IMG/VR virus record: IMGVR_UViG_3300032605_001130
Coordinates: 1 to 24,053 of that record
Reading direction: 5' to 3' (one strand)
Source of the DNA: a virus
DNA: 24,053 nucleotides
Both the position numbers and the translations under genes were made by a program. Shown here in pieces: positions 1,859 through 22,852 of this stretch. The notes under the pieces were generated by a model. That model worked only from the letters and a program-made list of their open reading frames with translations, searched no databases and was not told the DNA's origin. The first letter of the stretch is position 1, and the number at the start of each line of letters is the position of its first letter.

Positions 1859-2336
1859 TATTATCTGACTTTAATAGTTTGAGTGTTTCAGCATGTGCTA
1901 CACGTTTACGTAAACTTGAACTGCTGAATGAATGATCACGTTTATTATAAATTAACTCAATGCCGCGATATAGGCATTCTTCCTTACCAGTAAAATCAGT
2001 ATGTTGATATTCTTCACCTAATACACGTACATCTAGTGGAAGGATTAACAGTAGGTCAATTAGGTCTTGTTCTGTTTGGTAGATAACTACTTCATCTACA
2101 TAACGACAAGCAGCCAACTGGATCTGACGTTCTACAATACTTTGAACAGGCTTGTTCTTAGTATCAGGACGGTCAATGGTCGGATCTGTTTGTAAACCAG
2201 CAATCAAGTAATCACAGTGATTTTTGGCTTCACTTAACATGGCTATATGGCCAGCATGTAGCATGTCGAATGTACTAAAGGTAATACCGATCTTCTTACC
2301 TTCAGCTTTAAGTTCTTTAATCTTGTTAAAAATCAT
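1836..2336 (-). CDS. Cytidylyltransferase-like nucleotidyltransferase (TagD/RfaE family)
   Basis: The family signature is complete. GITFSTFDMLHAGH ends in the HxGH nucleotide-binding motif at residues 27-30. An ERQIQL segment follows near residue 70, and a SSSSLRKR segment near residue 140 corresponds to the ISTT-type C-terminal motif. Relatives such as glycerol-3-phosphate cytidylyltransferase transfer CMP or AMP to a phosphorylated small molecule. At 166 aa it is a stand-alone domain. The substrate cannot be read from the sequence; activation of a sugar- or polyol-phosphate for lipid, capsule or NAD-type precursors are all possible. Its ATG overlaps the clpS stop (TAATG), so the two are coupled. 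The last 11 codons run past the predicted fold and host the start of the 35 aa ORF. Confidence 0.8.
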   Translation of the reverse strand: MIFNKIKELKAEGKKIGITFSTFDMLHAGHIAMLSEAKNHCDYLIAGLQTDPTIDRPDTKNKPVQSIVERQIQLAACRYVDEVVIYQTEQDLIDLLLILPLDVRVLGEEYQHTDFTGKEECLYRGIELIYNKRDHSFSSSSLRKRVAHAETLKLLKSDNNVTKITK

Positions 2337-2641
2337 TATGCATCTGGTTCCAATTTAATAACTAATGGATATCCATTATTACGAGCAAGTTGTGTAACTT
2401 CTACACCTTTTTGTTCTGCCATTTCGTATGGTAACGTTGCAGCAATACCACTACCATTTACATGAATACTCTGTGTAATTTCAGCAGCAGTATCATGGCT
2501 GTGATTAAACACAGTAATTAAACTTTCGATTACAAATTCCATAGTAGTAACATCATCATTGATGTAGATAACCCGATACATTGGAGGTTCATGAAGTTCA
2601 AGATTTGGCGTTGGTCTGACTCTAGTAACTGCTTTTCCCAT
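2336..2641 (-). CDS. clpS: ClpS, adaptor of the Clp protease (N-degron recognition)
   Basis: The 101 aa protein matches ClpS along its whole core. YRVIYINDDVTTMEFVIESL at residues 22-41 holds the NDD triad (28-30) and the TxM hydrophobic-pocket segment. H60 in the SIHVNGSG segment corresponds to the ligand-binding His of E. coli ClpS. The protein ends with PLVIKLEPDA, as in the family. The binding pocket for destabilising N-terminal residues is therefore intact. The phage protein would dock on host ClpA and redirect ClpAP, either favouring or competing with host N-degron turnover. It stands first in a possible sub-operon with its own promoter (2696-2724) and 5' hairpin (2668-2687), downstream of dnaK and hsp20. 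Confidence 0.93.
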   Translation of the reverse strand: MGKAVTRVRPTPNLELHEPPMYRVIYINDDVTTMEFVIESLITVFNHSHDTAAEITQSIHVNGSGIAATLPYEMAEQKGVEVTQLARNNGYPLVIKLEPDA

Positions 2642-2667
2642 AATTTCTTTCTCTTTTAGTTAATGAT

Positions 2668-2687
2668 GGGTGGAGTTTCCTCCACCC
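2668..2687 (-). promoter_or_regulatory. Strong GAAA-loop hairpin at the predicted 5' end of the clpS mRNA
   Basis: Read on the minus strand this is GGGTGGAG, a GAAA tetraloop, then CTCCACCC: eight perfect pairs, six of them G-C, closed by a stable GNRA loop. No T-run follows on either strand, so it is not a standard intrinsic terminator. It begins one or two bases after the start predicted from the TATAAT at 2701..2696, so it would cap the transcript's 5' end and may protect it from RNase E-type decay. It could also slow polymerase or mark a processing site between hsp20 and clpS. Confidence 0.7.
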
Positions 2688-2695
2688 TTAAGACT

Positions 2696-2724
2696 ATTAT
2701 ACTACTTTTCGAAGGTAATTGCAA
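2696..2724 (-). promoter_or_regulatory. Candidate sigma70 promoter for clpS and downstream genes
   Basis: On the minus strand, TTGCAA (2724..2719) is followed after exactly 17 bases by a perfect TATAAT (2701..2696). It overlaps the end of hsp20 and lies 55 bases before the clpS ATG. The -35 box matches the consensus at four of six positions. The 17-base spacing equals that of the stronger promoters in this window. It would add clpS transcription on top of any read-through from dnaK-hsp20. Confidence 0.45.
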
Positions 2725-3145
2725 TAGATTTTTTAGTAGATTGTGGAATGAATATTTCTACATTTACTTTTAAAATACCATTGCGAACTGTTGCATTTTT
2801 AACTTCTGCATCATCTGGCAGAGCAAATGTACGTACAAAATTACGTGCTGCAATGCCATGATGTAGATAGTTACCTGTGTTTTCTATGGTGTTAGATTTA
2901 GTTTCGCCTCTAATAATCAACTCACCATCTACCAGTTCAACCTCAAGTTCGTCCTCTTCAAACCCAGCTACAGCTACTTCAATAGAGTATTCTGTTTCAG
3001 CAATACGAAGAATGTTGTAAGGTGGATAGTTAGTGTTGTTTAACTTTTCTTGTGTACGAGCAAGCTCTGCAAACATACGATCAAACCCAACAGCAAAACG
3101 TGGTAAATTACTAATGTCAAAAGATGTTATATAATGTTCTTTCAT
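2702..3145 (-). CDS. hsp20: Hsp20 small heat-shock protein (IbpA-like)
   Basis: This 147 aa protein has an N-terminal arm with a GFDRMF motif typical of class A bacterial Hsp20. The alpha-crystallin domain covers roughly residues 43-137: YPPYNI opening, VAGFEEDELEVEL, YLHHGIAARNFVRTFALPDD and NGILKVNVEI. A C-terminal IPQSTKKSIAI tail follows. Hsp20s hold unfolding proteins in a refoldable state and hand them to Hsp70. Its ATG overlaps the dnaK stop codon (TAATG), and the strong AAGGAG Shine-Dalgarno lies inside the last dnaK codons, so the holdase and DnaK are made together. Hsp20 genes are common in T4-like marine phages; having them coupled to dnaK is less usual. Confidence 0.93.
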   Translation of the reverse strand: MKEHYITSFDISNLPRFAVGFDRMFAELARTQEKLNNTNYPPYNILRIAETEYSIEVAVAGFEEDELEVELVDGELIIRGETKSNTIENTGNYLHHGIAARNFVRTFALPDDAEVKNATVRNGILKVNVEIFIPQSTKKSIAITFEK

Positions 3146-5055
3146 TATTTTTTCTCCTTTTTAACTTCTGTAAACTCTGCATCTACTACATTGTCGGCTG
3201 ATTCTGTAGTTGTTTGTTCGCCTGGTTCAACAGTTGGTTGTGCTTTTGCTTGTTGATCTGCGTATAATGGTTCAACTAATTTACTTACTGCCACCATTGC
3301 GTCACGAATAGCATCTACATCATCACCTTTGATTGCTTCTTCAATTTTTGCCAGAGCCGCATCAATATTAGCTTTTTGTTCTTCAGTAACTTGATCAGCT
3401 TTATCTTCAAGTGTTTTTTTAATGTCATGTACTTGTGCATCTGCTGTATTACGTGTTTGAACAAGCTCAACTGTTTTCTTATCAGCTTCTGCATTAGCTT
3501 CAGCATCTTGAACCATACGTTCAATTTCTTCTTCAGTTAGTCCTGAGTTAGCTTTGATAGTGATGTTCTTTTCTTTGCCGGTATTTTTATCTTTAGCACT
3601 TACTTTTAAAATACCATTAGCATCAATGTCTAAAGTAATTTCAATTTGTGGAGTACCACGACGTGCTGGCTCAATACCTTCTAGGTTAAATTCGCCTAGT
3701 TTTTTATTGTGTTGCACCATTTCGCGCTCACCTTGGTATACCGCTACAGTTACAGCTGGTTGGTTGTCTTCGGCAGTAGAGAATACTTGGCTTGCTTTAG
3801 TAGGAATAGTTGTATTCTTTTTAATCAACTTGCTCATTACTCCGCCCATTGTTTCAATACCTAATGATAATGGAGTAACATCTAGTAATAGAACATCTGT
3901 TTTATCACCGCTTAACACAGCACCTTGGATAGCCGCACCAACTGCAACTGCTTCGTCTGGGTTAACGTCTTTACGTGGAGCACGACCAAATAGTCGCTCA
4001 ACTTCTTCTTGTACCTTAGGCATGCGTGTTTGGCCACCAACTAAGATAACATCATCAATGTCTTTAGCAGTTAATTTAGCATCTTTTAATGCCACTTTAC
4101 ATGGCTCGATACTACGTTTAATTAGTTCTTCAACTAGGCCTTCAAATTTAGCACGTGTAATAGTTACGTTTAGGTGTTTAGGACCAGTAGCATCAGCAGT
4201 GATATATGGTAGATTTACTGTTGTGCTTGTTGAACTTGATAGTTCAATCTTAGCTTTTTCAGCTGATTCTTTTAGGCGTTGCAGAGCCAATTGGTCTTTG
4301 CTTAGGTCAACTCCTGATTCTTTCATAAACTCATCAATGATGTAATCCATGATACGTTGGTCAAAGTCTTCACCGCCCAGGAATGTATCACCATTAGTTG
4401 ATAATACTTCAAATTGTGTTTCACCGTCAATATTTGAGATTTCAATAATACTTACGTCAAATGTACCACCACCTAGGTCATAAACAGCAATCTTGCGATC
4501 ACCCTTTTCAGCTTTGTCCATACCAAATGCTAGAGCGGCCGCTGTTGGTTCGTTAATGATACGTAGAACTTCTAGTCCGGCAATTGTACCGGCATCTTTA
4601 GTAGCCTGACGTTGGCTGTCGTTGAAGTAAGCCGGTACTGTGATAACTGCCTGTGTTACTTCCTCACCTAAATAATCTTCCGCAGTCTTTTTCATTTTGC
4701 GTAGGACTTCTGCTGAGATCTGTGGAGGCGCTAATTTATCACCATTAACTTCTACCCAAGCATCGCCGTTGGTATTTTTAATAATTTTATAAGGCATCAA
4801 ATCGATGTCTTTTTGTACAGCTTGTTCTTCGAATTTACGTCCGATTAAACGTTTAGCTGCATAGATTGTATTTTTTGGATTTGTAACTGCTTGACGTTTG
4901 GCTGGTGCACCAACTGCGATTTCATCGCCGTAGGCAACAATACTAGGGGTAGTACGAGCACCTTCGTTATTTTCAATTACACGTGGTTTGTTGTTTTCAA
5001 GAATGGCCACACAAGAATTAGTGGTGCCAAGGTCAATACCAATGATCTTAGACAT
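3145..5055 (-). CDS. dnaK: DnaK (Hsp70) molecular chaperone, complete
   Basis: At 636 aa this is a full-length DnaK (E. coli 638 aa). The nucleotide-binding domain shows [11 protein letters not shown] (5-15), [12 protein letters not shown] near 167-178, [10 protein letters not shown] (193-202, including the catalytic Thr) and VGGQTRMP near 339-346. The conserved linker [10 protein letters not shown] is at 388-397, followed by the beta substrate-binding domain and a helical lid. The tail ([12 protein letters not shown]) resembles proteobacterial DnaK. The [16 protein letters not shown] and [18 protein letters not shown]-type regions look beta/gamma-proteobacterial, so host origin is likely. 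No frameshift or lost catalytic residue is seen. An AAAGGAG precedes the ATG. Host DnaJ and GrpE must serve it unless they lie elsewhere in the genome. It probably supports virion protein folding and host proteostasis. Confidence 0.97.
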
Positions 5056-12483: not shown

Positions 12484-12512
12484 TTGACTTTTCTACTGAG
12501 TGACTATATAAT
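12484..12512 (+). promoter_or_regulatory. Early promoter of the small-gene array
   Basis: TTGACT (12484-12489), 17 bases, perfect TATAAT (12507-12512). The first ATG is at 12519, seven bases after the -10, where transcription should begin, so the array's first gene is probably read from a leaderless message. Confidence 0.85.
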
Positions 12513-12518
12513 AGTAAC

Positions 12519-12734
12519 ATGAAGATTCTATTAGAGCAAGATGGCGGACATTTGGCAATGATTGTTGAACACAGTCTAAAGCCTCAATGGGATGCTGTAA
12601 TTTATGATATAGCTGAAGAGCTCAAGGACCGTAAAGGTGTGCGTCGTATGGCCTATGATACTTGGCACTGGGATCTACGTAAACAGCAAGAAGCTGAAGA
12701 ATATATTACATACTTTTATTTGAAGCACGAATAA
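12519..12734 (+). CDS. Small-gene array member 1 (71 aa)
   Basis: This first gene of the array has no Shine-Dalgarno and its ATG coincides with the predicted transcript start. It holds a Trp-rich central part (LKPQWDAVIYDIAEEL and DTWHWDLRKQ). It ends in EEYITYFYLKHE, a divergent version of the C-terminal array motif (D/E-x-x-T-x-F-x-L-R/K). Its stop overlaps the next start (TAATG). It is probably an early, small host-interaction protein; no family is recognised. Confidence 0.72.
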   Translation: MKILLEQDGGHLAMIVEHSLKPQWDAVIYDIAEELKDRKGVRRMAYDTWHWDLRKQQEAEEYITYFYLKHE

Positions 12735-13024
12735 TGACCTTAGATATTACATATGGTAACATCGAAGAAGGTCCGGTGTACTTGAACATCAAGGGCAGTG
12801 ATCACGCGGCTCGAATTTTTATTAATTTTTTAAGAGATATAATTGGATATGTGCCCGATGATCCTGTTGTTGAAATTTCAGAGTACCAACGGGTCAAGGC
12901 TGCTCTAGCTGAATATAATGCAGTGTACAAATTTAATCAGGCCAAGGCCGGACATATCAAACGACATTTTATACGCTTTGGTACTCCTAAAGATCTAACA
13001 GCATTTTTAATGAGATACTCATGA
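12734..13024 (+). CDS. Small-gene array member 2 (96 aa)
   Basis: The N-terminal part has no relation I can see to its neighbours (alpha/beta-like, AARIFINFLRDIIGYVPDDP). The end RFGTPKDLTAFLMRYS fits the array motif: an aromatic strand, then D-L-T-A-F-x-M-R-Y. The TGA overlaps the next ATG (ATGA). No function is known. Confidence 0.75.
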   Translation: MTLDITYGNIEEGPVYLNIKGSDHAARIFINFLRDIIGYVPDDPVVEISEYQRVKAALAEYNAVYKFNQAKAGHIKRHFIRFGTPKDLTAFLMRYS

Positions 13025-13299
13025 GAGCAGCACCAGTAGAGCGACAACAAGTAGAACGACAGTTACTCGACCAAGGGTGGCATGCGGTTCGCATACCCAA
13101 AGTGGAAGGTGATAACACGTGGAGCATTTACAATATGACGAAGTGGTGCGAGCATACTCTTGGGCTAGGTAGACAAGAACCAGGCATGATTGGTCTCGGT
13201 TTGGGGGATGTTTGGTACGTGTTTAATTGGTTTGGCTATTATAATTTTTACTTTGAGCACAGTAAAGATGCTACCGCATTTGCCCTAAGGTGGGCATGA
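13021..13299 (+). CDS. Small-gene array member 3 (92 aa)
   Basis: This Trp- and Gly-rich protein (NTWSIYNMTKWCEHTLGLG, GDVWYVFNWFGYYNFYF) ends in FEHSKDATAFALRWA, a clear copy of the shared motif. The last codons (CTAAGGTGGGCATGA) supply an AAGGTGG ribosome site for the next gene and overlap its ATG. No function is known. Confidence 0.78.
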   Translation: MRAAPVERQQVERQLLDQGWHAVRIPKVEGDNTWSIYNMTKWCEHTLGLGRQEPGMIGLGLGDVWYVFNWFGYYNFYFEHSKDATAFALRWA

Positions 13300-13511
13300 G
13301 AGTTCCAATACACAAAATACTATCAGCGTTTCATAATGCCAACCAAGCGGTAATTGCTAACGGTGGTTTTGGATTAGAACGACACCGACATAAAGATGCC
13401 TTTGAGCAACTACACAATGTTAAGATTATTCAAAGCAACTGGGGTAATTGGGATGAATTAGTTTTTCCTAGTGATGCAGCATATACAGCGTTTTTGTTGA
13501 GGTGGGCATAA
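13296..13511 (+). CDS. Small-gene array member 4 (71 aa)
   Basis: The ATG at 13296 is chosen over a GTG six bases upstream because it sits in an ATGA overlap after AAGGTGG. The body is a short, His- and Asn-rich helical protein with a Trp pair (SNWGNWDELVF). It ends in FPSDAAYTAFLLRWA, nearly the same as member 7. The stop and next start overlap as TAATG after GAGGTGG. Confidence 0.78.
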   Translation: MRVPIHKILSAFHNANQAVIANGGFGLERHRHKDAFEQLHNVKIIQSNWGNWDELVFPSDAAYTAFLLRWA

Positions 13512-13744
13512 TGGCATACTACTATAACGGAACAAGTCATTATATTAAAGTCACAGCCCGTGGTGACTACGATAAGTATCTAACGGCGGTTGCGTTTAGG
13601 GACGAAGTTGATGCTTGGTTAGAGGATAATGCTATTGATACACTCTACGAAGATATGGAATATATCGTCAATGGTAAGTATGAATACCATTTCCTCTGTT
13701 TAAAAGAAGAACATGCTACTATGGCAAAGTTGAGGTGGTCATGA
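13511..13744 (+). CDS. Small-gene array member 5 (77 aa)
   Basis: The ATG at 13511 follows GAGGTGGGCATA; the in-frame GTG at 13502 is less likely. The body is Tyr- and Asp-rich (MAYYYNGTSHYIKVTARGDY) with an acidic helix. It ends in FLCLKEEHATMAKLRWS, a looser form of the motif that keeps LRW. It overlaps the next gene by ATGA. Confidence 0.76.
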   Translation: MAYYYNGTSHYIKVTARGDYDKYLTAVAFRDEVDAWLEDNAIDTLYEDMEYIVNGKYEYHFLCLKEEHATMAKLRWS

Positions 13745-13977
13745 GCATATTAGATGGTGCCAACGGACGTAAGTTCATAGTAAGCGGTCCGTTTGATCAA
13801 GAAATGCCTTACCATTATATTGTCATTGCTGATATTAGCTATTGGATGAAAAACGAAAAAGCTATATATGCGTGGATGGATATCAATCTACCTAGGGGTC
13901 GTATGCATCAAGAAGGCATGACCGTAGTATTAGAACGTGAAGAAGATGTTACTGCATTTATTATGAGGTGGGCATGA
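13741..13977 (+). CDS. Small-gene array member 6 (78 aa)
   Basis: The ATG at 13741 follows GAGGTGGTC, with the previous stop overlapping as ATGA. A beta-alpha-like body (KFIVSGPFDQEM, YHYIVIADISYWM, AIYAWMDINLP) precedes VVLEREEDVTAFIMRWA, a clear motif copy. The final codons give GAGGTGGGC and the next ATG. No function is known. Confidence 0.77.
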   Translation: MSILDGANGRKFIVSGPFDQEMPYHYIVIADISYWMKNEKAIYAWMDINLPRGRMHQEGMTVVLEREEDVTAFIMRWA

Positions 13978-14198
13978 CAGATCATAGATGTGTACAATTT
14001 GTTCCTTTTAGAATAATACATCGTGCGGCTGTGAGTATGGATGCAGAAAAGCGTAAACTTACAGTATGGCAATGGCAAGATGAATTTGAACTAGAGTATA
14101 ATGTTAAATTTAGCCAACTTAAAGCTGATGTAGAGAGTTATTGTGTAATATTCCCTAGTGACCAAGATTACACTATGTTTATGTTGAGGTGGGCGTGA
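13974..14198 (+). CDS. Small-gene array member 7 (74 aa)
   Basis: The ATG at 13974 lies in the ATGA overlap after GAGGTGGGC. A basic N-terminal half (CVQFVPFRIIHRAAV) and a Trp-Gln-rich stretch (LTVWQWQDEFELEY) precede VIFPSDQDYTMFMLRWA. The FPSD-x-x-YT-x-F-x-LRWA ending is shared almost exactly with member 4, suggesting recent duplication or exchange of the 3' end. Confidence 0.78.
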   Translation: MTDHRCVQFVPFRIIHRAAVSMDAEKRKLTVWQWQDEFELEYNVKFSQLKADVESYCVIFPSDQDYTMFMLRWA

Positions 14199-14512
14199 GT
14201 AAAATACCTAAAAACGTTGCCTTAGATCGACTACACGAAGAAGACATATGGTCAAATGAATGGGAAGACTATGTTTTTTCTATGCATCAAAATGATTGGA
14301 CTGATTGGGACACTCAGCCGTGGAATTGGTATATGGAACGTGACATGCGCACCAGAGAAGGGTGGCATCATGTTACTATCAATCCTATGCACAAAGATGT
14401 CACAGTTATCTATTATCTCAAGTCACAAAACGCTAAGTTTAAATGTAGTCGTAATGAGTTTTTAATTGAAGATCATCAACACGCAATGATGGTAACATTA
14501 AAGTATGCGTAG
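14195..14512 (+). CDS. Small-gene array member 8 (105 aa, GTG start)
   Basis: The GTG at 14195 follows GAGGTGGGC and overlaps the previous stop as GTGA. This is a very Trp-rich protein (WSNEWEDYVF, then WTDWDTQPWNWYMERDM) with several His. It ends in FLIEDHQHAMMVTLKYA, a divergent copy that keeps L-K-Y-A. It overlaps the next gene by eight bases. The Trp density suggests a binding protein, but nothing more can be said. Confidence 0.75.
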   Translation: MSKIPKNVALDRLHEEDIWSNEWEDYVFSMHQNDWTDWDTQPWNWYMERDMRTREGWHHVTINPMHKDVTVIYYLKSQNAKFKCSRNEFLIEDHQHAMMVTLKYA

Positions 14513-14843
14513 AGTCATAGCCAAGGGAAGGCACGTGGGTAAATCAACATTAAGTTTAGCAGATCAGATACTACAACACCAATCACAGTTGATGCAACGT
14601 AGTATTGACCGTATGGTCATGGAGGAGATTTGGTCTTTATACAAATATCGTATACACAAATCCTGGACTGATCGTAGAGGTCGCAAGATGCATCGTATAG
14701 CTGCCGATAATGAAGTACGTGGATGGTTAGACACAGAACACAGTCAATACGGTGTTGCTGATCCAGACTGGTGGAAGTTTGAGAAACAAATCAACATCAC
14801 TGACAAATTGTTCACCCTATTAGTCCTAAGGTTTGCAGAATGA
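14505..14843 (+). CDS. Small-gene array member 9 (112 aa)
   Basis: This basic, helical protein (RRVIAKGRHVGKSTLSLADQ, then a Gln/Met-rich helix and KSWTDRRGRKMHRIAAD) could contact nucleic acid. The GKST string lacks the rest of a Walker A motif, so it is not called an ATPase. It ends in INITDKLFTLLVLRFAE, with L-R-F-A in place of L-R-W-A. It overlaps member 10 by ATGA after AAGG. Confidence 0.75.
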   Translation: MRRVIAKGRHVGKSTLSLADQILQHQSQLMQRSIDRMVMEEIWSLYKYRIHKSWTDRRGRKMHRIAADNEVRGWLDTEHSQYGVADPDWWKFEKQINITDKLFTLLVLRFAE

Positions 14844-15037
14844 AATTTAAAAAAATTTCCCAGAGCCCTAGAGCTTGTATATATGCTCTAGCAGAAGATG
14901 TTGATTCAGTTGAATATAAAAAGTTAATCGACTGGCTTAATACTCACTGTCCTGGTGCATACGAAATTAATAACATGCACATAATTATCAATCGCCAAGC
15001 TGAATTGTTTTTTGACTTGACTTTTGAGTTAATTTAA
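14840..15037 (+). CDS. Small-gene array member 10 (65 aa)
   Basis: This short alpha/beta-like protein (ACIYALAEDVDSVEYKKLIDWL, then a strand NNMHIIIN) ends in RQAELFFDLTFELI, which keeps the spacing of the motif but has lost the basic/aromatic end. Its 3' end contains the -35 box of the methyltransferase promoter. No function is known. Confidence 0.7.
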   Translation: MKFKKISQSPRACIYALAEDVDSVEYKKLIDWLNTHCPGAYEINNMHIIINRQAELFFDLTFELI

Positions 15038-15045
15038 AGTATAAT
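15017..15045 (+). promoter_or_regulatory. Early promoter of the methyltransferase gene
   Basis: TTGACT (15017-15022), 17 bases, perfect TATAAT (15040-15045), sharing TTGACTTTT with the promoters at 12484 and 11209. The ATG is at 15068, preceded by a modest AGGAA. It lies inside the array, so the methyltransferase can be read separately. Confidence 0.85.
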
Positions 15046-15067
15046 AGCCATAGGAATACAATTAGTA

Positions 15068-16210
15068 ATGATAGGTATAGCAGATTTACACAAAACTTGG
15101 GGTACAGACAATTATCATACCCATGCACTACTACAGGGCACGGATATGTTTACCTGCTACGAAGGTGTAGCAGACCAATTAGCAGACTATACTAAAGAGC
15201 GGTACGATCAAGCACCAGAACAGGTTATCGAAGAGGTGTTTAATATCTACCGTTCAATTAATATTGTACCAATTAACTATTATACCGAACAGGGATTATA
15301 CTCTGCTATTCGTAATCTAAGTTTAAGTAATTACAATGAAGTTAAGAATGGTGTAATAGGACTTGGCAACAATCAAGGGCAAAGCATTAACCGTTTTTGT
15401 TTTCCAAATATGATGACTGCCGAACCTAAGGGTCGTGGCAGCAATAGTTTAAAGGATCGTTTCAATGATGATACTAAGTTGCGTCGCGCCATACGCATTT
15501 GCTTTGAGTTTAGGACTGGCGATAATCTTGTTAGCCCTACAGCACTCAGACGAGCGTTGGAATTGGTTACCGGAGAAAATATCCAGAATTTTAAACCACA
15601 GAATGCTTGTGCTATTGCTGAGTACCTATGTCCTGTTCTATGGGGTAATGTTTATGATTACAGTGCTGGCTACGGCGGAAGGCTCTTAGGCATCAGTTGC
15701 AGTACAATGAGCTATAACTACACCGCAGTGGACCCTAACACAGAAACCATAGAATATCTACACTACTTAAATGATTGTATATACGATAGTCTCGGTCGTC
15801 GAGGTACATTACATAAGAATGTCAGTGAAGTATTTGTTCCCGAGGACGTGGATCTAGCATTTAGTAGTCCACCGTACTTTAACTTAGAAAAATACAGTGA
15901 TGAACCTACACAGTGTATGAATCAATTTACTACACTTGATGAATGGTTCGAAGGATATGTTGTGCCTACTATGGCAAATATTCACAAGGGTTTAAATGCA
16001 GATGGTGTGTTTGCCACTAATATTGCTGACTATAAAGTAGGCAAAGATCGAGAATTTCTAGTAGTTGACCGTTGGATCGAAACTGCTGCAAAACTAGGAT
16101 TTAAACACAAGCAGACTATCAAGATGATGCTAAACACTCGCCCAGGTGTAGGCAATGATAAAGTTGCTGGGCGTGAAAAATGGGAGGGTGTATATGTCTT
16201 CACAAAATGA
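15068..16210 (+). CDS. DNA methyltransferase (amino-type, SPPY motif)
   Basis: The 380 aa protein has a SAM-binding motif I, YDYSAGYGGRLLG, at about residues 196-208. This is the form seen in a group of phage methyltransferases with D-x-x-AGxGGRLLG. It also has a catalytic SSPPYF at 266-271, the class IV motif of N6-adenine or N4-cytosine enzymes. A VDPNTET acidic motif at about 221 would bind the SAM ribose. The N-terminal 190 residues are family-specific and may choose the DNA site. No restriction endonuclease is adjacent, so it is a solitary enzyme, probably protecting phage DNA from host restriction or marking it. It has its own promoter and overlaps the next gene by 17 bases. Confidence 0.85.
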   Translation: MIGIADLHKTWGTDNYHTHALLQGTDMFTCYEGVADQLADYTKERYDQAPEQVIEEVFNIYRSINIVPINYYTEQGLYSAIRNLSLSNYNEVKNGVIGLGNNQGQSINRFCFPNMMTAEPKGRGSNSLKDRFNDDTKLRRAIRICFEFRTGDNLVSPTALRRALELVTGENIQNFKPQNACAIAEYLCPVLWGNVYDYSAGYGGRLLGISCSTMSYNYTAVDPNTETIEYLHYLNDCIYDSLGRRGTLHKNVSEVFVPEDVDLAFSSPPYFNLEKYSDEPTQCMNQFTTLDEWFEGYVVPTMANIHKGLNADGVFATNIADYKVGKDREFLVVDRWIETAAKLGFKHKQTIKMMLNTRPGVGNDKVAGREKWEGVYVFTK

Positions 16211-16559
16211 TTTAACTAATCGTCTTAAGAACATCAGTGCCGCAGTTGATGCCGCCAATGACTTATCAGCTACACAAAAAGACGAGTTCTACAAGGATCT
16301 GCCTAGACGCATAGATACCATCCTAGGCGAAGATCAACACCTACACAGTTTAAAACAGTTAGCCGATGCTCGCACAGCATGGATGAAAGAATTCATCGAT
16401 CCCGCCGCAGACTTCGACTTAAACACTTGGTCATTTGCCAATTGGCTGCGAGATCGTTGGGGTGTTGAACTAATCTACGACAACGAAACGCTTGGACTGT
16501 CAGGATACGCTGTTGTAGATCCGCAAAAACATTTATTGTTTACCATGGTGTTTCCGTGA
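16194..16559 (+). CDS. Small-gene array member 11 (121 aa), coupled to the methyltransferase
   Basis: The ATG at 16194 is preferred over an upstream in-frame start because GGGAGGG precedes it by five bases. The protein has an N-terminal helical part (NRLKNISAAVDAANDLSATQ) and a Trp-rich C-terminal part (TWSFANWLRDRWGVELIYD), ending YAVVDPQKHLLFTMVFP. This is a strand-turn-hydrophobic ending like the array motif but without LRW. Its GTGA junction with the next gene continues the array's style. It may work with the methyltransferase, but that is only position. Confidence 0.7.
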   Translation: MSSQNDLTNRLKNISAAVDAANDLSATQKDEFYKDLPRRIDTILGEDQHLHSLKQLADARTAWMKEFIDPAADFDLNTWSFANWLRDRWGVELIYDNETLGLSGYAVVDPQKHLLFTMVFP

Positions 16560-16777
16560 AAAGAAAGCTAATCAACGGTGAACTACTAGACAGCATCGAA
16601 AGCCATTTCCAACGAGATAATGGGTATTTTGTTGCTGACGAACTACCAGGTTGGCTAATGGCCATGGACCTTAGTGTTGTTGTGTGTAGATGGCACATGG
16701 ATGAGTTTTATCTATATCTAGGTGTGGTGTTTGCTAAAGAAGAAGATTATACTATTTTTTGTTTGAGGTGGTTGTAA
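16556..16777 (+). CDS. Small-gene array member 12 (73 aa, GTG start)
   Basis: It starts at GTG in a GTGA overlap. The body has an amphipathic helix (LLDSIESHFQRDNGYFV) and a strand-rich centre with Trp and Cys (LSVVVCRWHMDEFYLYLG). It ends VVFAKEEDYTIFCLRWL, a clear motif copy that matches members 4 and 7 in DYT-x-F-x-LRW. The end codons supply GAGGTGG for the next gene, with TAATG overlap. Confidence 0.77.
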   Translation: MKRKLINGELLDSIESHFQRDNGYFVADELPGWLMAMDLSVVVCRWHMDEFYLYLGVVFAKEEDYTIFCLRWL

Positions 16778-17040
16778 TGACTAAAACACTTACATTATCA
16801 ATGGATTCCTGGCACAAGTTGCAGGAAAAGATTATAGAAGATCATGGACGTACTACTTTGTTGATCAGTTGGCGATTAAAGGCTAATCTAGGTTTTAGTG
16901 TGCGAGAACATACTTGGCATGGTGACAGTGACAGTAACGGATTTATGGATAGGTTCACCGACATTCGCCTAGATTTTTATGATGAGCAACTACAGACTTT
17001 GTTCTTGTTAAAATATAGTGAATTTTTAACTAAATTTTAG
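16777..17040 (+). CDS. Small-gene array member 13, last gene (87 aa)
   Basis: The ATG at 16777 follows GAGGTGGTTGTA; an upstream in-frame TTG lacks support. The body contains SWHKLQEKIIEDHGRTT and a Trp/His segment (REHTWHGDSDSNGF). Near the end RLDFYDEQLQTLFLLKYS matches the array motif (F-x4-x-T-x-F-x-L-K-Y), with an extra EFLTKF tail that runs 15 bases into the convergent gene. No function is known. Confidence 0.73.
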   Translation: MTKTLTLSMDSWHKLQEKIIEDHGRTTLLISWRLKANLGFSVREHTWHGDSDSNGFMDRFTDIRLDFYDEQLQTLFLLKYSEFLTKF

Positions 17041-19059: not shown

Positions 19060-20160
19060 TTATAAACTTGGTAGTGCATCATAATCAACACTGTCACCCA
19101 TTACACCAATGACATAGTTAGTTGACTCTGATTCTTGTAAGGCTGTTTGTTTCTTGCTGGTGTCGCTGTGCTTGTTAAACCAAGGAATAGGTGTTGTTTT
19201 TGGTGCAGGTTGATTGTAACGTATGCCAATTTGTTTTAGTGCATCTACGGCTGTATAATCAACAAAATCCTTCAAAATATTAGCGTTTAGACCAATAACT
19301 GGCCCCATTTTGAACAAATAATCAGCCCAATCTTTCTCTTCCTTGATAACACTCATATACATCTGATATACTTCATCTTCACATTCTGCTTTGATGTCAG
19401 CAAAACGTGGATCTTCTTTAACCACTTGATTGATCAAGAACGCTGTCCACTCTTTGTGTAGCAGTTCGTCTTGTAAGATCAAACTGATAATGTTACCATT
19501 ACCAATAAAGATCTTATTCTCAACCATGGCTAAACTTGTAGCAAATGATACCATAAAGCGGAATGCTTCTAGGCCATAGCTGGCATGTAGGGCTAACCAA
19601 ATAGCTTTGATATGATCACGTTCTGCTACAGTTTCGCCCATTTCTTTACGACAATTAATAGCATGTAAGGCATCATAATAGTTACCAATGGTACTGGCCA
19701 TGCCCACAATCTCAGCAGTGTCGTGAATAGTATTAAACACATCTTTAGGTACATTATAGATATTACGAATAATATGACTATAGCTCTTACTGTGAATGTT
19801 AGTTTCGAAGAAACTCCAATTGCTGATAAGTGCTTCTAGTTCCGGGATACTCACCACTGGGCCGAATACTTGATTAGGTGCGCGGCCTTGTAAACTATCT
19901 AGGGCTGTTTGACGTAATAGGTTGCTGGTAAAGATATGCTTAACTGCATCACTCGCATCTTTAAAATCATTAGCATCTTTAGTTAGACTAACTTCTTCTG
20001 GTTGCCAAAAGAACCCCCTGGCTGTGGTTTCAAAGTTAGCAACTTTGTTATACTTAACTTCTTCAAAGCGTTGGATAGTTACAGGACCTGCCGGATCAAG
20101 GAACATCTTACGTTGTAGATAGTTTGTTTTGGTTAATAAATTATATTGTTCTTTACTCAT
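19060..20160 (-). CDS. nrdB: Ribonucleotide reductase class Ia beta subunit (NrdB)
   Basis: This 366 aa protein matches NrdB throughout. Candidate iron ligands are D88 (ALDSLQGR), E119 and H123 (FETNIHS), E198 (GLEAFRF), and E232 and H235 (DELLH). The radical Tyr is Y127 (SKSYSHII). Compared with E. coli, one residue (Asn) is inserted between E119 and H123, giving ExxxH instead of ExxH. The C-terminus (VDYDALPSL) is the short tail that docks into NrdA. With NrdA and glutaredoxin it makes dNTPs for phage DNA. Its ATG overlaps the iscU stop (ATGA). Confidence 0.95.
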   Translation of the reverse strand: MSKEQYNLLTKTNYLQRKMFLDPAGPVTIQRFEEVKYNKVANFETTARGFFWQPEEVSLTKDANDFKDASDAVKHIFTSNLLRQTALDSLQGRAPNQVFGPVVSIPELEALISNWSFFETNIHSKSYSHIIRNIYNVPKDVFNTIHDTAEIVGMASTIGNYYDALHAINCRKEMGETVAERDHIKAIWLALHASYGLEAFRFMVSFATSLAMVENKIFIGNGNIISLILQDELLHKEWTAFLINQVVKEDPRFADIKAECEDEVYQMYMSVIKEEKDWADYLFKMGPVIGLNANILKDFVDYTAVDALKQIGIRYNQPAPKTTPIPWFNKHSDTSKKQTALQESESTNYVIGVMGDSVDYDALPSL

Positions 20161-20534
20161 TGATTCTTTTTCCTGTAATCTTCTATTGCACTTTTGATAG
20201 CATCTTCCGCCAAGACTGAGCAGTGTATCTTTACTGGCGGTAGGGCAAGTTCTTCAGCAATCTCGCTGTTCTTAATTGCTTGAGCTTGGTCAAGCGTGCG
20301 GCCTTTAAGCCATTCAGTAACGAGGCTCGAACTAGCAATCGCACTTCCGCATCCGTAAGTTTTAAACTTAGCATCAGTGATAATGCCATTATCAACCTCT
20401 ATTTGTAATTTCATCACATCACCGCAAGCAGGCGCACCTACCATACCAGTGCCTACTTTAAGAGAGTTTTTATCTAAACTACCTACATTGCGTGGGTTTT
20501 CATAATGTTCTAAAACTTTTTCAGAATAGGCCAT
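20157..20534 (-). CDS. iscU: IscU Fe-S cluster scaffold, complete
   Basis: This 125 aa protein keeps every key residue. C37 and D39 are in GAPACGDVMKLQI, C62 in YGCGSAIASSS, H104 and C105 in KIHCSVLAEDAI, and the LPPVK chaperone-binding motif is at 98-102. It is close to E. coli IscU in length and almost collinear with it (MAYSEKV...HYENPRNVGS). It would assemble [2Fe-2S] clusters with a host IscS and pass them on with HscA/HscB. It is wedged between nrdA and nrdB with one- and four-base overlaps, so it is made at the same rate as the reductase. It was probably taken from a beta/gamma-proteobacterial host. Confidence 0.96.
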   Translation of the reverse strand: MAYSEKVLEHYENPRNVGSLDKNSLKVGTGMVGAPACGDVMKLQIEVDNGIITDAKFKTYGCGSAIASSSLVTEWLKGRTLDQAQAIKNSEIAEELALPPVKIHCSVLAEDAIKSAIEDYRKKNQ

Positions 20535-22852
20535 TACAGTTTACAGCTTTCGCAGTCCTCTTCAATAAATTCTTCTACTTGACCAGTTTGTAGTGGAGTT
20601 GCTTCTACATCTGCTTTTGATCCTTGCTTGTTCACAAGGCTGTAGTAGAAGGTCTTAATGCCCCACAAATGAGCCTGCATCAAGTTTTTAGCAATAAGTG
20701 TAGTTGGTACTTTACGATCTGCCCAGTGTGCTGGATTGTAGAATGTATTAGTTGAAATACTTTGATCTACATAGGCCGCAATAACAGCCGCAGTTTTCAA
20801 GTAAGCATCACAGTCTTTTTGTTCCCACATCAATTGATATTTGTTTTTCAATTTATGATATTCTGGAACTACTTGAATAAACGAGCCTGCTTTACTTTCT
20901 TTAACTGAAATCAAACTCATTGGCATTTCAATACCGTTAGTTGAGTTAATAACAACACTAGAACTTTCGACTGGTGCTACAGCCATTAAAGTAGCATTAC
21001 GCACACCATATTGTTTAACATGTTCACGTAGGCCTTCCCAATCCAACTCTGGAGTAAAGTCAGCAAGTTCATTAACGCCATTAGCACGTAGTTCCCATGG
21101 AAAAATACCCTGTCCATAACGTGTCTTAGCTGAGTCTAAACAAGCACCGCGTTCACGTGCTAGTTCTGTAGTTGCTTCTGTTAGATAAAATGCCTGATGC
21201 TCCATCCATGATTTAACTTCTTGTAGGGCATCCTTTTCACCGTATTTAAAGCTACGTTTAGCATGCCAATAGGCCAAGTTAGTAATACCAATACCCAAAG
21301 GTTGGATTTCATCGTTGCTTAACTTAGACTGAATAGATAAAAAGTCTTGATAGTCTAAGATATTACATAGGCTACGTTGTAGAATACGGCAAGCACGGCG
21401 CATGTCTTCTGGGTTACGGAAAGCACCCCAGTTAATTGACCCAAGTGTGCAAAGAGCAATACGGCCACTATCATCATCGAGACGCTTAAATGGTTTAGTA
21501 GGCAATAAAATCTCACAGCAAAGATTACTTTGATAGATAGTATGATATTCCGGATCAAACGGTCCTTGGTTCATTACATTGTCAATAAACACTAGATAGA
21601 TACGTCCAGTATCTGTGCGCTCTTTTAAGATACCGCCTTTGAATACTTCTTCTGCCGACATTACTTTCTTACGTAGACCGCTTTTCTTTTCATACTTAAC
21701 ATACAGTTCTTCAAACAGTTTAGCATCTTTGTAAAATGCTTCATATAGGTCAGGAACTTCATTAGGATCAAAGAATGTTATGTTTTCTTTGTTTTTGAAG
21801 CGTCTCCAGAAGAACGCCGACAATACGACACCATAGTCCATGTGACGAACACGAGTTTCTTCAGTGCCCTGATTATTTTTAAGCACAATAAGATCATCAA
21901 ACTGGTGATGCCATATTGGATAAAACACAGTAGCTGACGCATTTCTAATACCACCTTGTGAACATGAACGTAAATCACCAAACCACTTCTTAAGGAAAGG
22001 AATCATACCCGTGTGCATGATTTCCCCGCCTCGTATAGGACTTCCCAATGGACGTAGTCGACCTATCTCTAGACCAATGCCAGCACGTTTGCTAGCATAC
22101 TTGGCCATCATTTCTCCTGAAGCAAAGATGCTATCCAAGTCGTCATCACTGCGAATAAGCACGCAAGAGCTGAATTGTTTTGTTGGAGTGCCCAATCCAG
22201 CAAGCACAGGAGTAGCAAGAGTAAACAAACCATCACTAGCCGCATTGTAATATTCCTTGATAAATTTTAATCTTTGATTTGTTTCTTCTTTGTGCATGAC
22301 CGTTGCGGCTGCAATCATATAACGAATTTGTGGAGTTTCATAAATTTGTTTGGTACTGCGGTTACGCACAAGGTATTTCTCGATTAATTGTTCAATCGCA
22401 GCATATGAATACTCTTCGTCTTTTGCATGGTCAAGAAGATCATTCATCTTGTTCCATTCTTCTTCTGTGTACCACGTAAGCAACTCTTCTGTGTATAATC
22501 CTGTGGCCACATTAGTCTTAACAATTTCGTATAGGTGCGGAGGATTATAGTCACCGTAGACATCTTTACGCAGCATGCTCAGACGCTGTTTACCTGCTAC
22601 ATACTGATAGTTTACATGCCCAACATCTGGATTATGTTCTACGTCAATAAGATCAACAATAGCTCGAAGTGTTAGTTCATCAATTTCTCTAGTGCTGATA
22701 CCATCGTAGAAGTGTGGCTGTGCTTTGATCTCAATCATACTCTGACTGACATCTGCAATACCTGCACATATTTTAGTAACCTGCGCTTGCCATTTGCTAA
22801 CGTCTAAAGGTACACGTGCTCCACTGCGTTTAGTGACTTGAATGTTGCTCAA
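20534..22852 (-). CDS. nrdA: Ribonucleotide reductase class Ia alpha subunit (NrdA), TTG start
   Basis: The 772 aa protein has an N-terminal ATP-cone region (KRSGARVPLDVSKW, then EIDELTLRAIVDLI). The catalytic core is intact: C230 in FSSCVLI, N443/C445/E447 in SNLCCEI, and C468 in IALCTLG. Tandem radical-transfer tyrosines are present near residue 736 (TFYYSL), and the C-terminal redox pair is C767/C770 (CESCKL). The enzyme reduces ribonucleoside diphosphates. The start is TTG: no ATG or GTG occurs in frame between the previous stop and 22852, and AGAGG lies eight bases upstream. It heads the nrdA-iscU-nrdB-grx-LSm operon. Confidence 0.97.
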   Translation of the reverse strand: MSNIQVTKRSGARVPLDVSKWQAQVTKICAGIADVSQSMIEIKAQPHFYDGISTREIDELTLRAIVDLIDVEHNPDVGHVNYQYVAGKQRLSMLRKDVYGDYNPPHLYEIVKTNVATGLYTEELLTWYTEEEWNKMNDLLDHAKDEEYSYAAIEQLIEKYLVRNRSTKQIYETPQIRYMIAAATVMHKEETNQRLKFIKEYYNAASDGLFTLATPVLAGLGTPTKQFSSCVLIRSDDDLDSIFASGEMMAKYASKRAGIGLEIGRLRPLGSPIRGGEIMHTGMIPFLKKWFGDLRSCSQGGIRNASATVFYPIWHHQFDDLIVLKNNQGTEETRVRHMDYGVVLSAFFWRRFKNKENITFFDPNEVPDLYEAFYKDAKLFEELYVKYEKKSGLRKKVMSAEEVFKGGILKERTDTGRIYLVFIDNVMNQGPFDPEYHTIYQSNLCCEILLPTKPFKRLDDDSGRIALCTLGSINWGAFRNPEDMRRACRILQRSLCNILDYQDFLSIQSKLSNDEIQPLGIGITNLAYWHAKRSFKYGEKDALQEVKSWMEHQAFYLTEATTELARERGACLDSAKTRYGQGIFPWELRANGVNELADFTPELDWEGLREHVKQYGVRNATLMAVAPVESSSVVINSTNGIEMPMSLISVKESKAGSFIQVVPEYHKLKNKYQLMWEQKDCDAYLKTAAVIAAYVDQSISTNTFYNPAHWADRKVPTTLIAKNLMQAHLWGIKTFYYSLVNKQGSKADVEATPLQTGQVEEFIEEDCESCKL

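Follow-up and report, generated by a model that had tools for sequence, protein, structure and literature searches.

T4-like phages carry arrays of small early host-takeover genes, arranged in tandem under a sigma-70 promoter. Coupling of overlapping genes by termination and reinitiation, with the Shine-Dalgarno sequence lying inside the upstream gene, is a known mechanism (PMC6728339), and short boundary sequences have been proposed for phage mosaicism and are said to be unidentifiable at most boundaries (PMC3029335). The locus considered here lies at positions 12519-17040, on the + strand, of a window of 24,053 nucleotides (the whole stretch analysed, from IMG/VR record IMGVR_UViG_3300032605_001130; coordinates are positions in the window) and consists of 13 small genes (65-121 residues), many with a common C-terminal motif, plus one DNA methyltransferase. 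In all likelihood the array comprises several diversified paralogues of one unnamed phage family in which the motif is part of the fold, and, as judged from the nucleotides at the junctions, the Arg-Trp codons of the motif almost certainly double as the Shine-Dalgarno sequence of the next overlapping gene.

Like the early arrays of T4-like phages, this one is a tandem series of tiny genes behind a sigma-70 promoter, but a profile of the shared tail is unmatched in ten T4-like references, including T4, KVP40, Cr30 and PhiW-14. It resembles coupled overlapping pairs (PMC6728339) in its ATGA or TAATG overlaps and in the presence of a Shine-Dalgarno sequence inside the upstream coding end, whereas here that sequence is written by a protein motif shared by paralogues across many phages. 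Coupling by overlap is already known, and the novelty lies in an intragenic Shine-Dalgarno sequence being encoded within a conserved protein motif. As with phage boundary sequences (PMC3029335), short DNA is shared at the junction and unrelated sequence lies beyond it, but in this case a coding end with a start codon forms the boundary, and each module is a single gene of one family. The array of tiny overlapping genes had been proposed in an earlier sequence-only reading, and its genes and coordinates were verified as follows, with pairing energies referring to the tail of 16S ribosomal RNA.

12519..12734, + strand: g1, 71 residues, ending ...ITYFYLKHE; family membership unsupported by profile
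12734..13024, + strand: g2, 96 residues, ending DLTAFLMRYS; family member
13021..13299, + strand: g3, 92 residues, ending DATAFALRWA; member, its body profile-related to other subfamilies
13286..13299, + strand: g3/g4 junction, AAGGTGG...ATGA; the last codons of g3 read as Shine-Dalgarno and start of g4, -8.1 kcal/mol
13296..13511, + strand: g4, 71 residues, ending YTAFLLRWA; member
13499..13513, + strand: g4/g5 junction, GAGGTGGGCATAATG; the end of g4 reads as Shine-Dalgarno and start of g5, -8.3 kcal/mol
13511..13744, + strand: g5, 77 residues, ending ATMAKLRWS; member by its end, carrying the putative Shine-Dalgarno of g6
13741..13977, + strand: g6, 78 residues, ending VTAFIMRWA; member, about 65 homologous loci, AlphaFold pLDDT 87.6
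13965..13977, + strand: g6/g7 junction, GAGGTGGGCATGA; the end of g6 reads as Shine-Dalgarno and start of g7, -8.4 kcal/mol
13974..14198, + strand: g7, 74 residues, ending YTMFMLRWA; member, its GAGGTGG apparently serving g8 (GTG start)
14195..14512, + strand: g8, 105 residues, ending AMMVTLKYA; possible degenerate member, profile score not significant
14505..14843, + strand: g9, 112 residues, ending FTLLVLRFAE; weak member through its orthologue in locus L010 (E 5e-5)
14840..15037, + strand: g10, 65 residues; family membership unsupported by profile
15068..16210, + strand: DNA methyltransferase, 380 residues, within the array
16194..16559, + strand: g12, 121 residues; family membership unsupported by profile
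16556..16777, + strand: g13, 73 residues, ending YTIFCLRWL; member, its GAGGTGG apparently serving g14, -8.5 kcal/mol
16777..17040, + strand: g14, 87 residues; member, with 7 residues beyond the motif (LQTLFLLKY-SEFLTKF), AlphaFold pLDDT 84.1

The overlaps from g1 to g10 are, in order, 1, 4, 4, 1, 4, 4, 4, 8 and 4 nucleotides; a gap of 30 nucleotides separates g10 from the methyltransferase, and the overlaps downstream are then 17, 4 and 1 nucleotides. Nearly all junctions in the array are overlaps of the ATGA, GTGA, TAATG or a similar type, and the long GTG starts given by the open reading frame (ORF) finder are unnecessary, the ATG or GTG within ATGA or GTGA yielding the usual 4-base overlap. 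The endings quoted in the sequence-only reading are exact for g2, g3, g4, g6, g7 and g13, and that of g5 (KLRWS) fits too.

The starting sample consisted of 80 IMG/VR loci carrying the methyltransferase, to which searches with g6 and g3 added 76. From these loci an iterated tail profile recovered 194 members, 193 on the array strand and 1 on the other, and shuffled tails searched with the same profile gave 0 members, so that the profile search suggested in the sequence-only reading speaks against a chance motif. Compared without their tails, the 194 members fall into 36 body clusters, with the family of g14 among those recovered. Across IMG/VR, a DNA pattern encoding D-A-x-x-F-x-L-R-W-x-stop (TGA), with any Arg codon allowed, gave at least 120 stretches, as against 8 for a control in which TGG was changed to GGT. 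Among the matches listed, 147 of 151 sit in open frames of at least 25 codons, most also show F-x-F at the expected position, which the pattern did not request, and several loci contain 4-6 matches. For the tail F-x-F-x(4)-[DE]-A/Y-x-x-F-x-L-R-W, an independent profile, trained on sequences sharing no 6-mers with the window, recovers g3, g7, g13, g4 and, more weakly, g6: of 2000 shuffles, none scores as well as g3 or g7, one does so for g13, two for g4 and 24 for g6; the A12 profile, which includes window rows, matched six window genes. Chance is excluded as the source of the shared end. The looser copies listed in the sequence-only reading fared unevenly: g14 is supported through its recovered family and the end of g5 fits, but the ends of g1, g8, g9, g10 and g12 are not individually significant by the independent profile against shuffles, g9 having only the weak profile match of its orthologue.

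Typical ends read TTG AGG TGG GCA TGA, in which GAGGTG is a perfect Shine-Dalgarno complement stretch just before the overlapping start. Arg-Trp written as AGG TGG after a G would give GAGGTGG as the Shine-Dalgarno sequence, with the next start in the overlapping ATGA, GTGA or TAATG, and each gene would supply its successor with a ribosome-binding site, a second role of the shared end that the sequence-only reading missed. Overlaps of the ATGA/TAATG kind with a Shine-Dalgarno sequence inside the upstream gene are indeed found. The motif Arg is encoded by AGG in 69 of 80 coupled members (86%), compared with 7 of 29 uncoupled members (24%; Fisher test, p 2e-9) and 68 of 973 other Arg residues of the same proteins (7%; p 3e-57), and AGG is the majority codon in 17 of 20 coupled families versus 2 of 7 uncoupled ones. 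Among the matches listed in the independent IMG/VR sample, AGG occurs in 91 of 134 coupled cases versus 50 of 706 in the background, and a computed change of AGG to CGT shifts the mean pairing energy from -8.2 to -2.5 kcal/mol, a cost of nearly 6 kcal/mol. The RW pair is present in 71 of 127 coupled and 14 of 60 uncoupled members. Orthologues of g6 that lack a coupled gene often keep LRW with Arg encoded by CGA, CGT, CGC, CGG or AGA (AGG in one); in other uncoupled orthologues R is replaced by K, Q, S or T. GAGGTG is found in 30 of 89 member overlaps; among 426 further overlaps in these loci, a set with some chance ORFs, it is found in 4. For g4-g8 and g14 the pairing energy with the 16S tail lies between -8.1 and -8.5 kcal/mol, close to the -8.7 kcal/mol of the best other-strand gene checked, and only g12, at -10.7 kcal/mol, is stronger.

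The members are predicted to be proteins of about 60-110 residues with a beta-alpha-beta-beta-alpha fold, closed by the shared end as last strand and C-terminal helix, and the core of the chain would be F-x-F-x(4)-D-A-x-x-F-x-L. In the AlphaFold models of g6 and g14, whose bodies have no visible sequence likeness, both cores run beta, alpha, beta, beta, alpha, and the motif forms the last strand (F-x-F) and the closing C-terminal helix. The N-terminal parts, which the sequence-only reading had taken to be unrelated, are tied together in several cases by a recurrent Trp helix and by profile-profile links. Against the independent set, the g6 orthologue profile gives an alignment of 52 columns (probability 97, E 9e-11); the g3 profile aligns to a different subfamily across 66 columns that take in the body (E 6e-11). 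A Trp in the recurrent helix is near-invariant in the bodies of the independent set (at least 90% of 83 sequences), but a regular expression for the helix matches 84 of 107 sequences against a shuffle mean of 55, which is only moderately above, and it is therefore the profile comparison that carries the relatedness of the bodies. The chains of the g14 family and some other members extend past the motif, by up to about 13 residues. The two models, the body alignments and these extended chains favor the second possibility raised by the sequence-only reading, a fold with the shared strand-helix end as its core. Among g6 orthologues the conservation of the body (0.72) matches or exceeds that of the tail (0.65), and the ratio of nonsynonymous to synonymous substitution rates (dN/dS) is 0.05-0.29 for the pairs tested; each body thus appears to be specialised and constrained rather than hypervariable. 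The g6 orthologues in L013 (13547-13990) and L125 (576-1019) are open in frame for about 70 codons further upstream, and in L013 this upstream part contains another stretch resembling the motif (FDTPQDETKF), which may mark a fusion of two members.

The surroundings of g6 suggest how such genes may move. Across contigs, g6 is followed by 9 different downstream gene clusters, which include other members, the methyltransferase, a phosphatase-like gene and a lipoprotein-like gene. Pairs of g6 loci are 87-100% identical up to the stop codon and 20-40% identical from the next base, and several pairs show the same drop directly upstream of g6; at the g6 loci there is thus a short shared junction sequence with breakpoints exactly there. 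As a pattern, exchange of cassettes at the junction is very probable from these comparisons. Because every such cassette ends alike, cassettes could be swapped at the junction without breaking the translation of the neighbor, and exchange at the junction would explain the shuffled gene orders. That the shared sequence itself causes the exchange is a tentative reading of the pattern, since a like trace could result from selection to keep translation intact. More speculative still is the view of the shared coding end as a universal connector that completes the fold, provides the start of the following gene and, being the same from cassette to cassette, acts as the site of crossover; phages of very different sizes might then trade and accumulate single-gene cassettes of one effector superfamily, as in a natural plug-and-play operon.

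Several points weigh against a single family with dual-purpose ends. The profile test fails for g1, g8, g10 and g12, and many of the loci are related, so that the member and codon counts are not independent. Among the matches listed in the pattern-selected IMG/VR sample, the use of AGG does not differ significantly between coupled (91 of 134) and uncoupled (6 of 13) members (p 0.13); uncoupled members in the starting loci still exceed the background in AGG use (7 of 29), and several coupled members in Sinorhizobium phage Phosso are without a strong Shine-Dalgarno sequence. The likeness of fold rests on two models, g6 and g14, and on the order of elements: the structure comparison suggested in the sequence-only reading gave the same order in both, but Foldseek with either model did not retrieve the other. 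Finally, the profile link of g14 to the family is restricted to the tail, its body being unlinked.

Two promoter-like sites lie on the array strand.

12484..12512, + strand: array promoter, sigma-70-like TTGACT-17-TATAAT, with the ATG of g1 6 bases past TATAAT; same layout in many related loci
15017..15045, + strand: second promoter, TTGACT-17-TATAAT, upstream of the methyltransferase gene

In three sets of loci, ORF starts peak exactly at +6 from such sites (19, 15 and 23 cases), and each of the other offsets below 29 has 0-7 ORF starts. The +6 spacing at g1 and at recurrent loci probably reflects leaderless early messages whose 5' end is the start codon. Were g1 leaderless, g1-g10 would form an operon free of untranslated bases, both ahead of g1 and at the gene junctions. 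Further ATG codons at +6 from promoters with 17-bp spacers are seen at L004 9530, L006 2330, L010 445, L033 7451 and others.

By profile matches the motif is widespread, as the sequence-only reading had supposed it might be, and it reaches jumbo phages, though it is absent from the T4-like phages tested, the group in which that reading placed similar endings. A wider profile, built from the pattern-found IMG/VR set and the window, gives 5-31 members in many contigs, the maximum of 31 being in a contig of 607 kb. Phosso (PV764938.1; L160, L307), a cultured phage of 469 kb first reached through a weak tblastn match of a 60-residue member, has 28 matches at E <= 0.05; these are dispersed, with several in a tandem run of five small ATGA-overlapping genes, and those inspected carry hypothetical-protein annotations. 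Thirteen further records have no match to the tail profile: T4, KVP40, P-SSM2, S-PM2, S-SSM7, HTVC008M, phiM12, phiM9, Cr30, PhiW-14, DAC16, a Vibrio phage and an uncultured phage. There is no family match in the jumbo phages GAP32, 121Q, SCTP-2 and phiKZ, and one weak match in Atu_ph07. Searches of cultured phages with g6 and L241 by tblastn gave nothing, and scanning genome contigs with g6 turned up no relative. Pfam, PHROGs, NCBIfam, PADLOC and PDB contain no curated-level or convincing family match common to the members, a fold search of PDB gave no match, the good matches in BFVD are only unnamed proteins from uncultured phages, and no description of this protein family was found in the open-access literature. 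With members checked singly, the Gp23 major capsid family (Pfam PF07068) scored 13-18 bits against a cut-off of 24.4 bits, mostly over about 30 residues, and was rejected. The likeness is that of a subfamily outside the window (L171, L216, L241 and L259), whose N-terminal helices (LEEEI..EMAREIDREVL) weakly resemble Gp23 positions 168-199, below threshold; the members are not Gp23.

The opposite-strand neighbors of the array are ordinary phage genes, encoding a NifU-like protein, an exonuclease and a collagen-like tail protein (PHROGs) and, judged from its translation, ribonucleotide reductase. On that strand, the regions 2336-5055 and 19060-22852 hold auxiliary genes resembling ClpS, Hsp20, DnaK, NifU/IscU and both ribonucleotide reductase subunits, all but NifU being named from reading the translations alone. 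In a DNA comparison of the window with cultured phages, the nearest matches were negligible.

Taken as a whole, the explanation that joins the family, dual coding, exchange and a role in the host is likely. As tiny, diversified single-domain proteins under purifying selection behind a sigma-70-like promoter, the members are best viewed as small early host-directed binders, each body specialised to its own target, although this role by itself has about even odds. An overlapping and less probable view is that they inhibit restriction or other defenses near the phage methyltransferase. The enclosure of a methyltransferase by the array, and the small size and diversity of the genes behind a sigma-70-like promoter, are in keeping with this, but the pattern-found loci were not selected for a methyltransferase, the charge of the members is ordinary (median isoelectric point 5.6, range 4.1-11.1), unlike that of typical DNA mimics, and no anti-defense family was matched in searches that included no dedicated anti-defense library. 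Somewhat less probable again is a heteromeric complex kept at a fixed ratio by coupled translation, one example being an assembly around the methyltransferase, whether structural or DNA-binding. In Escherichia coli and Haloferax, complex subunits are over-represented among overlapping gene pairs (PMC10666635), and the members appear to share one fold and do overlap; the arrays nevertheless differ widely in composition and order, and single, scattered members are found too (28 in Phosso; g6 with 9 downstream clusters), which would be odd for subunits in a fixed ratio. The docking or processing tag of the sequence-only reading, or a degradation tag, on otherwise unrelated effectors would account for a constant extreme C terminus behind a variable body in the window, but it is very improbable: the motif is placed in a folded strand-helix in both models and not in an unstructured tail, residues follow it in the g14 family and others, the bodies are related by profile, and the body of g6 orthologues is conserved as much as the tail. 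The Shine-Dalgarno effect as sole cause, whereby unrelated proteins end alike since the DNA must read GAGGTGGxxATGA, accords with the enrichment of AGG and RW in coupled genes and can still account in part for the last two residues, but as a full account it is refuted, since the Shine-Dalgarno sequence comes only after the conserved F-x-F and D-A-x-x-F-x-L, uncoupled orthologues often retain LRW through CGN codons, solitary Phosso members keep DAxLFKL, and GAGGTG is rare in the other overlaps of the same loci.

On the favored explanation, what appeared to be a row of orphan genes falls mostly into one large unnamed family that extends from contigs of tens of kb to jumbo phages of 470-600 kb. 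Its presence in a cultured phage makes bench study possible, and Phosso would be a good model for it. The shared end would be a clear natural case of the same codons serving both the fold of a protein and the ribosome-binding site of the next gene, and it may supply an actual sequence for the long-standing idea that phage mosaicism is driven by short sequences at module boundaries.

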